From Algoriella xinjiangensis (GTDB lineage Bacteria; Bacteroidota; Bacteroidia; Flavobacteriales; Weeksellaceae): 64,000 nucleotides of DNA. Below, in pieces: positions 51,589-54,357 of the stretch. Under the pieces are notes generated by a model. That model saw nothing but the letters and a program-made list of their open reading frames with translations, was not told the DNA's origin and searched no databases. The stretch's first letter is position 1. Each line of letters starts with the position of its first letter. The DNA lies in the NCBI RefSeq assembly GCF_900115015.1, contig NZ_FOUZ01000001.1, positions 62,001-126,000 on the forward strand, read 5' to 3'. Both the position numbers and the translations under genes were made by a program.

Positions 51589-52719
51589 TTATAAATTTCC
51601 TCTACGATCTTGCTCTCTTTCTAAAGCTTCAAATAATGCTTTAAAATTTCCTGCTCCAAAAGATTGTGCGCCATGACGCTCAATTATTTCATAAAACAAT
51701 GTTGGACGATCTTCTACAGGTTTTGTAAAGATTTGTAATAAATATCCTTCTTCATCACAATCAACCAAAATTCCTAGGCTTTGAAGTTTTTTGATGTCTT
51801 CATCAATTTCTCCAACACGTTCTGGAATCATATCGTAATATGCTTCTGGCGGTGCAGATAAAAATTCAACTCCACGAGATTTTAATTCAGTTACAGTTTT
51901 TACAATATCTTTTGTTGCAACTGCAATGTGTTGAACACCTTCGCCTTCGTAAAAATCTAAATATTCTTCAACTTGCGATTTCTTTTTTCCTTCAGCAGGT
52001 TCGTTAATTGGAAATTTAGAAAAACCATTTCCGTTACTCATTACTTTAGACATCAAAGCAGAATATTCTGTATTAATTTGTTTGTCATCAAAAGACAAAA
52101 TATTAACAAATCCCATCACATCTTGGTACCATTGCACGGTATCATTCATACGATTCCAACCCACATTACCAACGCAATGATCTACATACAACAAACCACA
52201 ATCAGTCGGTTGATAAGCAGATTCTGACTTTACATAACCAGGCATAAATGGACCATCATAATTTTTACGCTCAATAAACATGTGTATTGTTTCTCCATAC
52301 GTATAAATTCCAGCCATTTTAACTTCACCAAATTCATCTGTAATTGTAGTTGGCTCTAAGTATGATTTGGCACCTCTTTTTGTTGTTTGTTCGTACGCAT
52401 CGTACGCATCATCTACCCAAAGTGCTAAAATCTTTACGCCATCTCCATGTTTTAGAGCATGTAAAGCGATAGGAGAATCTGATTTTAAACCAGAAGTTAA
52501 AACTAAACGAATTTTACCTTGTTGTAAAACATAAGAAGCTCTATCTCTAACGCCGGTTTCTGGACCTGCATAAGCAACTTCTTGATATCCGAAAGCTGTT
52601 TTGTAATAATGTGCTGCTTGCTTTGCATTACCAACATAAAACTCGATATAATCTGTTCCATTAATTGGTAAAAAATCTTGGGCTTGCGCTATTTTTTCAG
52701 CAAATGTTTGTGTACTCAT
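51589..52719 (-). CDS. hppD: 4-Hydroxyphenylpyruvate dioxygenase
   Basis: 376-residue non-haem iron enzyme that turns 4-hydroxyphenylpyruvate into homogentisate (tyrosine breakdown). Metal ligands are visible in LLYVDHCVGNV (His, about 182), GVQHIAVATKDIV (His, about 263) and LFYEIIERHGAQSFGAGNF (Glu, about 346). Two VOC-like domains as expected. It is separated from hmgA by a repeat-containing gap of 196 bases; a terminator follows it. Confidence 0.95.
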   Translation of the reverse strand: MSTQTFAEKIAQAQDFLPINGTDYIEFYVGNAKQAAHYYKTAFGYQEVAYAGPETGVRDRASYVLQQGKIRLVLTSGLKSDSPIALHALKHGDGVKILALWVDDAYDAYEQTTKRGAKSYLEPTTITDEFGEVKMAGIYTYGETIHMFIERKNYDGPFMPGYVKSESAYQPTDCGLLYVDHCVGNVGWNRMNDTVQWYQDVMGFVNILSFDDKQINTEYSALMSKVMSNGNGFSKFPINEPAEGKKKSQVEEYLDFYEGEGVQHIAVATKDIVKTVTELKSRGVEFLSAPPEAYYDMIPERVGEIDEDIKKLQSLGILVDCDEEGYLLQIFTKPVEDRPTLFYEIIERHGAQSFGAGNFKALFEALEREQDRRGNL

Positions 52720-52794: not shown

Positions 52795-52827
52795 AATGTG
52801 ATTCTGAAATAAATTCAGAATCACATT
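52795..52827. repeat. Perfect palindrome, left half of a bipartite repeat
   Basis: AATGTGATTCTGAA and TTCAGAATCACATT form a perfect 14 bp stem around a 5-base loop. Followed at 52876 by a second palindrome of similar core. No T-tract on the side that would make it the hmgA terminator. Confidence 0.75.
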
Positions 52828-52875
52828 AACTTTTATTGAAATTTAAAATTTTTGTCCTAAACAAATCTTAGTGAG

Positions 52876-52896
52876 AAGCTGAAACAAGTTCAGCTT
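52876..52896. repeat. Second palindrome, right half of a bipartite repeat
   Basis: AAGCTGAA and TTCAGCTT flank ACAAG. On the minus strand the core reads GCTGAACTTGTTTCAGC, which I recall as common intergenic repeat sequence in Flavobacteria. The two palindromes lie 49 bases apart. Confidence 0.6.
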
Positions 52897-52915: not shown

Positions 52916-54073
52916 TTAATAAAGCCATGATTTAAAATAATCAGGATCTTCTATTTCCAATGCTTGTTCGGTTAACATTAATGGTCTAAAAGGATCAATC
53001 ATCACAGCTAATTCGTGTGTTTCTTTTTGACCAATAGATTTTTCTACAGTACCAGGATGTGGACCATGTGGAATTCCTGCTGGATGTAAGGTAATTTGTC
53101 CTCTCTCGACAGATTTTCTCGACATAAAATCTCCATCTACATAATACAAAATCTCATCCGAATCTACATTACTGTGATTATAAGGCGCCGGAATTGCATT
53201 TGGATGATAATCAAACAAACGAGGAACAAAACTACAGATTACAAAACCTGCTCCTTCAAAAGTTTGATGTACCGGTGGTGGCTGATGAATACGACCTGTA
53301 ATTGGCTCGAAATTATGAATAGAAAATGCCCACGGATAATGAAAACCATCCCATCCTACAAAATCAAATGGATGTGTACCGTACACATAAGGATAAATTA
53401 ATCCTTCTTTTTTAATCATGATTTTAAAATCACCGTGTTCATCAATGGTTTCAAGATTTTGCGGACGTTTTATATCACGTTCACAAAATGGTGCATGTTC
53501 CATTAATTGTCCAAAATGATTACGATAACGACGCGGCGTTTCTATTGGACTAAATGATTCGGTAATAAACAATCGGTTATTTGAATCATTAAAATGAAAT
53601 TGATAAATAATTCCGCGAGGAATCACTAAATAATCTCCATATTCAAACTCAATTTGTCCGTAACCTGTTTTTAAAACTCCAGAACCTTCGTGTATAAAAA
53701 TAACCTCATCTGCTTGTGTATTTTTATAGAAATAATCTGTCATAGATTCTTGCGGAGCAGCCAAAGAAATATGCAAATCATTGTTGACCAAAACTGGTAC
53801 TCTCGATTCGATATAATCTTTTTTTGGTGCTACTTTAAAACCTTTTAAAGAAGTATGTTTTAAATGTTTTGCACGTGCAATTTTTGGTTCGACCGAAAAT
53901 GGTTCGTTAATTTCTTTTACCAAAGTTGGTGGATAACAGTGATAAACATTAGAATACGTACTCGAAAAGCCATGCGTAGAAACTAATTCTTCTGCGTATA
54001 ATTCGCCGTTTGGTTTTCGGAATACTGTATGTCGCTTTTGTGGGAAATTCCCCAAAGAGTGATAAAGTGGCAT
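52916..54073 (-). CDS. hmgA: Homogentisate 1,2-dioxygenase
   Basis: 385-residue iron enzyme that opens the homogentisate ring, next step after HppD. Metal and active-site region: HNFEPITGRIHQPPPVHQTF, SFVPRLFDYHPNAIPAPYNH and LHPAGIPHGPHPGTVEKSIG. Maleylacetoacetate isomerase and fumarylacetoacetase are not adjacent. An unusual leader with its own promoter and a 33-codon ORF lies upstream. Confidence 0.95.
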   Translation of the reverse strand: MPLYHSLGNFPQKRHTVFRKPNGELYAEELVSTHGFSSTYSNVYHCYPPTLVKEINEPFSVEPKIARAKHLKHTSLKGFKVAPKKDYIESRVPVLVNNDLHISLAAPQESMTDYFYKNTQADEVIFIHEGSGVLKTGYGQIEFEYGDYLVIPRGIIYQFHFNDSNNRLFITESFSPIETPRRYRNHFGQLMEHAPFCERDIKRPQNLETIDEHGDFKIMIKKEGLIYPYVYGTHPFDFVGWDGFHYPWAFSIHNFEPITGRIHQPPPVHQTFEGAGFVICSFVPRLFDYHPNAIPAPYNHSNVDSDEILYYVDGDFMSRKSVERGQITLHPAGIPHGPHPGTVEKSIGQKETHELAVMIDPFRPLMLTEQALEIEDPDYFKSWLY

Positions 54074-54115
54074 AGCGTACTTTTATTTTTTTTGTTTTGA
54101 TGAAAAGGTATAGAT

Positions 54116-54130
54116 GACGAGAATTCCGTC
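54116..54130. promoter_or_regulatory. Imperfect palindrome just upstream of hmgA
   Basis: GACGAGAATTCCGTC has GACG/CGTC arms and a central GAATTC. On the minus strand a TTG (54128-54130 region) and a TACCTTTT box surround it. Possible operator or minor promoter; weak evidence. Confidence 0.3.
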
Positions 54131-54155
54131 AACACTAATTTTGCATTATTCTTAC

Positions 54156-54257
54156 TTAATGAGAATATTGCGCGAAAACAATTTTGGAAAGTAAAGCAGA
54201 AGTTTGCTTATTCATTCCAACAAATAAGGGTTTCATATTTTCCTTTTTCGTTTCCAT
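54156..54257 (-). CDS. Short 33-codon ORF in the hmgA leader
   Basis: Starts METKKENMKPLF and ends in FAQYSH, then TAA. The ATG follows a well-formed promoter by about 13 bases, which is the same short-leader layout seen for other genes in the window. The product has no clear signal peptide or membrane helix. The stop is about 82 bases before the hmgA ATG. It may be a leader peptide (F, Y and H codons at the end), a small protein gene, or chance; I lean to the first two. Confidence 0.35.
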   Translation of the reverse strand: METKKENMKPLFVGMNKQTSALLSKIVFAQYSH

Positions 54258-54276
54258 TTCTTTCTTGTGGTTATCC

Positions 54277-54308
54277 CAAATATAGCACATTTATTTTGAT
54301 TGTACCAA
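54277..54308 (-). promoter_or_regulatory. Complete promoter (TTG - 21 bp - TATATTTG) for the leader ORF and hmgA
   Basis: On the minus strand TTG at 54308-54306 is separated by 21 bases from TATATTTG at 54284-54277. This is the best two-part Bacteroidota promoter in the window. Transcription would begin near 54271, giving an hmgA leader of about 200 bases. Confidence 0.65.
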
Positions 54309-54328: not shown

Positions 54329-54357
54329 CAAAAAAAGCAACCTAACTTAGATTGCTT
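54329..54357 (-). terminator. Terminator of the radical SAM gene
   Basis: AAGCAA-C-CTAA pairs with TTAG-A-TTGCTT, followed by a T-tract on the minus strand. Confidence 0.7.

Follow-up and report, generated by a model that had tools for sequence, protein, structure and literature searches.

A conserved leader peptide before hmgA in Bacteroidota is a probable nascent-peptide sensor of tyrosine catabolism

Leader peptides of the trp, his and pheA type typify the classical attenuators, and SecM, MifM, ErmCL and SpeFL are established nascent-chain arrest peptides; to our knowledge, few nascent peptides that sense a metabolite have been described. In the tnaCAB operon of Escherichia coli, ribosomes that reach the end of the leader peptide TnaC are stalled by free tryptophan, and Rho is thereby kept off (PMC8429421). 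TnaC is the nearest worked-out system to the leader described here; each is a short peptide encoded before an operon for the catabolism of an aromatic amino acid.

Among Bacteroidota, attenuation has been described before amino-acid biosynthesis operons of Flavobacterium psychrophilum, in a section that does not name hmgA; the same paper gives a median 5' UTR of 24 nt and states that translation initiation in this phylum uses signals other than the Shine-Dalgarno sequence (PMC9723704). Bacteroides thetaiotaomicron has sORFs in long 5' UTRs (PMC7366714), and a mention of homogentisate dioxygenase in PMC3711429 concerns translational coupling. A search of the open-access literature (subscription papers, preprints and supplementary tables lay outside its scope) found no leader peptide before hmgA or hppD and none of the three tail strings reported below.

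The locus lies within a 64,000-nt stretch of the Algoriella xinjiangensis genome, hereafter the window, and its features are collected in Table 1. The leader frame is open for 44 codons and contains an additional ATG at 54290, which falls within the promoter. The encoded peptide ends in FAQYSH and occurs once in its own genome. Terminator-like hairpins with a T-tract, such as the one upstream of the leader, number two in the region, where shuffled sequence would give 1.7. In 45 of the 48 named loci examined (L015-L062), hmgA is followed by an hppD signature.

Table 1. Features of the hmgA leader locus (positions are those of the 64,000-nt window)
Feature	Position	Strand	Remarks
Predicted promoter, Bacteroidota primary-sigma type, TTG-N21-TATATTTG	54277-54308	-	Upstream of the leader ORF
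Leader ORF, 33 codons + TAA (METKKENMKPLFVGMNKQTSALLSKIVFAQYSH)	54156-54257	-	ATG at 54257, 19 nt past the promoter box; stop at 54156; found in all 13 hmgA-bearing genomes of the genus; peptide under purifying selection
Conserved codons of the peptide tail, ALLSKIVFAQYS	54162-54197	-	Candidate arrest motif: Gln-Tyr followed by Ser or a stop codon; comparison of 93 leaders
Leader-hmgA spacer, 82 nt	54074-54155	-	Between the leader stop and hmgA
Small hairpin, TGACGG-AATTC-TCGTCA	54115-54131	-	In the spacer; relatives keep a hairpin of other sequence there
hmgA, homogentisate 1,2-dioxygenase, Sphingobacteriaceae type	52916-54073	-	ATG at 54073; Pfam HgmA_N; trees
hppD, 4-hydroxyphenylpyruvate dioxygenase	51589-52719	-	Next pathway gene; Pfam
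Terminator-like hairpin + T-tract	54335-54357	-	After the upstream radical-SAM gene; separates that gene from the leader transcript

The gap between hmgA and hppD holds a perfect 12-bp inverted repeat, TGTGATTCTGAA-ATAAA-TTCAGAATCACA (52797-52825, + strand), along with another dyad like it near 52874-52896. Between the same two genes, the loci L007 and L012 have related palindromes too. We take them to resemble dispersed flavobacterial palindromic repeats, and they do not look like part of the leader system.

An earlier note, made from the window alone, had proposed a leader ORF before hmgA, and comparison with relatives indicates that it understated the case. Among 14 genomes of the genus, the window's own included, 13 have hmgA (the closest named locus is that of Empedobacter tilapiae, with an HmgA 95% identical to the window's), and all 13 carry the ORF just upstream of it, ending in KIVFAQYS(H/F/L) and a stop codon or, in one genome, in KIVFAQYS and a stop. 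The remaining genome (G004) has no hmgA match, and its best match to the leader reaches only E 0.25. Similarity among the leaders of the genus runs up to the stop codon and then breaks down. Over 21 codons of nine non-identical sequences pN/pS is 0.19, falling to 0.12 over the last 12 codons; this Empedobacter set was selected by hmgA alone and includes L011. A previous computation, from which a filter had omitted L011 and in which some near-copies were kept, gave 0.19, 0.097 for the last 12 codons, and 0.92 and 1.32 for the other frames.

In a sequence as AT-rich as this one, open frames some 30 codons long are common, which speaks for a chance ORF, or for a side effect of some conserved element in the DNA or RNA. 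This reading, which we consider barely credible, is already contradicted by frame-specific selection (0.19 in frame; 1.05 and 1.30 when the same nine sequences are read in the other two frames) and by the occurrence of the ORF throughout the 13 genus genomes and in 132 of 251 Sphingobacteriaceae genomes, and it was rejected. The ORF bears two marks of a functional leader ORF: its frame is under purifying selection at the level of the peptide, and it sits between promoter and main gene in conserved synteny. These comparisons indicate that it is a real protein-coding gene, beyond chance, and selection at the codon level argues that it is translated. Identity with a known protein or RNA family was rejected as well: no Pfam or NCBIfam model matched the five leaders tested, no Rfam family scored above its gathering score in 10 loci, and the window region gave only sub-threshold Rfam matches to unrelated eukaryotic families. 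No known arrest motif was recognized in the leader.

To follow the leader beyond the genus, we searched 296 genomes of the family with a leader profile. Strong matches (E < 1e-10) were confined to the 13 genus genomes and three genomes of a second genus, g28, where the leader also lies directly before hmgA. Weak matches in other Weeksellaceae (E 0.002-1) were discarded, as none of the eight loci inspected (L110-L116, L123) lies before hmgA or hppD. Other Weeksellaceae genera possess another HmgA type, and the 520 nt examined at 20 such loci contained no ORF ending in one of the three tails. Among the matches listed, HmgA of the 16 leader-bearing genomes is at least 88% identical to that of the window, versus 57-64% for the rest of the family and 75-82% for Sphingobacteriaceae. 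In a tree that left out 11 of 47 loci (L015, L032, L034, L046, L050, L063, L065, L070, L079, L089 and L092), Empedobacter and g28 HmgA fall with Sphingobacteriaceae, across a branch with 100/100 support from 16 native Weeksellaceae proteins. A second tree, which left out 20 of 62 loci (16 of them native Weeksellaceae loci included in the other tree), places Sphingobacterium as the sister group (support 94/91). Because HmgA of Empedobacter groups with Sphingobacteriaceae and not with its own family, gene and leader were probably acquired together, by Empedobacter and g28 alike. A draw of 395 genomes from across the phylum returned leader class 1 (E ≤ 0.01) only in the window's own genome and in nine genomes of one family, identified as Sphingobacteriaceae by matching coordinates; an eleventh match was set aside, lying inside a 375-codon frame.

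The Sphingobacteriaceae themselves yielded one match each in 132 of 251 genomes at E ≤ 0.001; hmgA is present in 165. Positions of hmgA were tabulated for 150 genomes, and in 117 of the 118 leader genomes among them the match lies 64-253 nt (median 96) upstream of hmgA on the same strand. The other 14 leader genomes were inspected singly: in 13 the leader precedes hmgA, and in one (G517) it precedes hppD (72% identical over residues 1-162). Overall, the leader precedes hmgA in 130 of 132 genomes, and hppD or a remnant of it in two. The remnant, in G414, matches HppD residues 4-37 (56% identical, E 4e-6) and runs into another gene; that gene, which now follows, may have taken over the leader. 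What is left at this locus (L174) is the leader with roughly 37 initial codons of hppD, the remainder of which is gone; the 418-codon ORF that follows resembles, by eye, a Glu/Leu/Phe/Val-type dehydrogenase. Thirty-two Sphingobacteriaceae genomes with hmgA are listed without a profile match. Of 20 that we inspected, ten carry a divergent leader, read by eye as G(M/L)xxxxKAL(I/L)A(D/E/A)VVF(A/D)QY and a stop, and no leader was seen by eye in the other ten. The earlier note had named conservation of the ORF, its frame and its end codons upstream of hmgA in relatives as a check, and the comparison bears this out for frame and end in the leader-bearing relatives.

What is conserved is the tail. 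We compared 93 non-identical leaders, obtained from 120 loci after removal of duplicates. Gln is present in 93/93, the preceding Ala in 92 and the following Tyr in 90 (Phe in three), although part of the conservation in the ten positions that end with Tyr comes from the motif filter used to select the set. The next codon is Ser in 58 leaders and stop in 35, and the peptide continues past Tyr for no residues (35 leaders), one (2), two (53), three (2) or five (1). Six places before Tyr stands Lys in 78 leaders, Asp in 8, Glu in 6 and Ala in 1; the Phe of the tail is replaced by Leu or Met in 38/93, and the window's final His is elsewhere Leu, Ile, Phe, Ala, Thr or absent. Wherever possible, tail codons for the commonest residue vary synonymously. 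Within three Sphingobacteriaceae groups, pN/pS of the last 12 codons is 0.08-0.13; across all 93 leaders it is 0.31, a weaker signal than within groups. A looser filter adds L011 (ending in LLTKIVFAQYSF and a stop, with Thr for Ser) and L169 (ending in AKIVFAQNSL and a stop, with Asn for Tyr). Two tails are deviant: L196 (G457) has VVFDQY for VVFAQY and L169 (G445) has IVFAQNSL for IVFAQYSL, each directly before the stop.

The N-terminal half is unconserved and variable in length, so that, as in SecM, MifM, ErmCL and SpeFL, function would sit in C-terminal residues within the tunnel while the N-terminus is free; a conserved tail with a variable N-terminus is also what a TnaC-type leader would show. 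We know of no precedent among arrest peptides for a motif like L(S/A)KIVFAQY or for a tyrosine-catabolism target in Bacteroidota.

The earlier note had suggested that clustered Tyr, Phe and His codons act as the sensor. The comparison speaks against this: a single aromatic codon, Tyr, is nearly constant, and neither Phe nor His is conserved. Tyr as the nearly constant codon does fit an attenuator in which too little charged tRNA-Tyr makes the ribosome stall there and alters folding downstream, given that the operon degrades tyrosine. We nevertheless consider such an attenuator very unlikely. One Tyr codon is not a run of regulatory codons; Phe (three leaders) or Asn (one) can take its place; conservation of the residues before Gln-Tyr would go unexplained; and a stall brought on by starvation would switch a catabolic gene the wrong way round, unless the response were inverted. 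The structures that such a mechanism would employ, a U-tract terminator and antiterminator pairing, were also absent from pattern searches and predicted folds, as described below.

Does transcription of hmgA begin before the leader? The earlier note had placed the best two-part promoter of the window there. The pattern count is not unusual, with three exact matches in the window and 3.0 expected from shuffling; TANNTTTG alone has 117 matches, with 111.5 expected. As these counts equal chance, we rejected motif rarity as evidence, and the box is informative by position and conservation. Twelve of the 13 genus genomes with hmgA (all except L013) have an exact TANNTTTG box 18-28 nt ahead of the leader ATG; 3/3 g28 sequences carry the box too. 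Across the 93 loci, 46 have an exact box upstream of the leader, at 75-220 nt from the last base of the Tyr codon (shuffling the letters would give 7.3), versus none in the spacers between leader and hmgA (6.3 expected). A looser box no more than 90 nt from the ATG occurs in 5/93 spacers, versus 7/10 leaderless Sphingobacteriaceae and 9/20 native Weeksellaceae upstream regions. From this distribution, hmgA transcripts very probably start upstream of the leader ORF, as the note had supposed.

The order of promoter, leader ORF and dyad is that of a classical attenuator, and the earlier note had likened the leader to one. The dyad is present, although it is modest (z -1.39, with 4/40 shuffles as good) and without a U-tract; taken as a whole, the leader folds with mild stability only (z -1.73). 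Taking 25 representative spacers with mutual identity below 72%, we found that the best local hairpin exceeds its shuffles (mean z -2.14; in the best 10% in 17/25), whereas control stretches inside hmgA do not (mean z -0.20, n=18). The sequence of the hairpin differs between species. No U-tract follows it in the 25 representatives (T 0.38, the same as in the spacers overall), and an intrinsic terminator after the leader was therefore rejected. When the leader RNA under a stalled ribosome was masked in 25 predicted folds, values for the hairpin moved from 0.66 to 0.70 and those for the hmgA start site from 0.61 to 0.63, and no alternative pairing was seen; a structural switch driven by masking was rejected, as the folds hardly change. 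Lacking a regulatory codon run, a U-tract and a competing structure, the hmgA leader does not look like a classical attenuator. Because masking barely alters the folds, an arrested ribosome would more likely act via Rho or RNA decay than via a refolding switch. The spacers contain more C than G in 24/25 representatives (pooled C/G 1.84, median 1.75); this bias, which would suit Rho, says little, since the median is close to that of ten leaderless Sphingobacteriaceae upstream regions (median 1.71, pooled 1.38; pooled controls 1.01-1.38) and the Flavobacteriaceae class described next stands at 1.17.

Two further families have tail-conserved ORFs of different sequence at the same genes. In Chitinophaga, leaders ending in QSSYCCLMATLAMDSSL (L079) and QQSYCYLMATLAMDSAV (L092), each followed by a stop, precede hmgA, and one ending in KYYFLMATLAMDSARS and a stop precedes hppD of Chitinophaga pinensis. 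A profile built from these three matched 48 of 214 Chitinophagaceae genomes at a lax E of 0.05. We inspected 32 loci (30 profile matches and two others): the ORF precedes hmgA in 10 and hppD in 13, four have hmgA or hppD with the ORF unplaced, and five have neither gene. The class (L079, L092, L243, L248-L276), with tail LMATLAMDS.. before the stop, includes sub-types such as FRNFTYWIDKRxWKYxFLMVSLEMDS.

In Flavobacteriaceae, 14 of 30 inspected hmgA loci carry an ORF of 21-22 residues ending in L(I/M)KR(N/K)PE and a stop; no such leader was seen by eye at the other 16. A profile of the 14 matched 93 of 184 genomes at E 0.05, 82 of them with E ≤ 3.1e-4. In all 36 of those 82 genomes with a known hmgA position, which may include the profile's own 14 source sequences, the match lies 51-246 nt (median 97) upstream of hmgA. 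Across 38 non-identical copies the stop is fixed after Pro-Glu (38/38), and pN/pS is 0.34, versus 0.96 and 1.18 in the other frames. The hairpin signal in the spacer is weaker (mean z -1.26; 17/38 in the best tenth). Only 5/38 have an exact promoter box in the roughly 45 nt ahead of the leader, and the spacers have none (0/38), so the promoter argument is absent for this class. Its general form (L277-L336) is about 21 residues, M..FW..LL..LHFLIKRNPE before the stop. By eye, the three tails have nothing in common beyond hydrophobic character. Given that no leader was seen at 10/20 Sphingobacteriaceae and 16/30 Flavobacteriaceae loci inspected, the leader appears dispensable in some lineages.

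These other classes bear on whether the peptide acts in trans. The earlier note had offered a small protein gene as its second possibility, and the ORF is indeed protein-coding and selected. Its purifying selection and co-inheritance with hmgA would suit a small trans-acting protein from the same operon, for example a partner of HmgA. Such a role is improbable, however, for a peptide whose N-terminal half is unconserved and whose length varies, which stands before hppD or its remnant in 2/132 genomes, and whose position is filled in Chitinophagaceae and Flavobacteriaceae by dissimilar peptides. That two other families keep ORFs with conserved but unlike tails at these genes argues instead for a function in cis.

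We tentatively suggest, as a possibility somewhat short of even, that Bacteroidota control homogentisate and tyrosine breakdown by sensors in the ribosome tunnel whose peptide was invented or rebuilt at least three times, with the same signal read by unrelated tails. Under this tentative reading, the three sensors would be L(S/A)KIVFAQY(Sx) of Sphingobacteriaceae, moved with hmgA to Empedobacter and a second genus, LMATLAMDS.. of Chitinophagaceae and LIKRNPE of Flavobacteriaceae, each ending at its stop.

Together, the tail-centred conservation, the position between promoter and operon, the probable co-transfer, the placement before hppD where the operon has come apart and the dissimilar peptides elsewhere point to a cis-acting peptide that works inside the ribosome. 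The ORF before hmgA probably encodes a nascent-peptide sensor of the hmgA-hppD (tyrosine catabolism) operon; its ligand and its output step are each less sure. With the tail ...LSKIVFAQY in the exit tunnel and ample L-tyrosine, or ample amounts of a catabolite such as 4-hydroxyphenylpyruvate or homogentisate, the ribosome would pause; the likeliest arrangement has Tyr in the P site, while the A site contains the Ser or stop codon. L-tyrosine is a first guess, by analogy with tryptophan and TnaC. The halted ribosome would shield the spacer from premature transcription termination by Rho, or from decay, and hmgA-hppD would be expressed; without ligand the ribosome would depart and the transcript would be lost. 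A peptide that pauses constitutively, its tail slowing the ribosome without any ligand and so protecting or tuning the mRNA, would account for tail conservation equally well. We regard it as unlikely, because the tie to one pathway and the recurrence of different peptides there suggest a signal.

The proposed sensor shares further features with TnaC, in that the stop directly follows the last conserved residue in 35/93 leaders and no intrinsic terminator was seen. It departs from TnaC in having no sequence similarity by eye, in a tail that ends in Gln-Tyr and not in Pro, and in a spacer with a hairpin; arrest, ligand and Rho are what we infer here. Nor is the stop fixed: in 58/93 leaders Ser comes first and the stop follows 1-5 residues later, so the ribosome, if it does arrest, would not do so purely at termination.

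If confirmed, three peptide families of one phylum would probably sense the same small molecule, which would make it possible to ask directly how dissimilar tails can form a common ligand site within the tunnel of the ribosome. Horizontal transfer would be seen to carry leader and target together as one unit, and the leaders would predict unannotated control of a widespread catabolic pathway.
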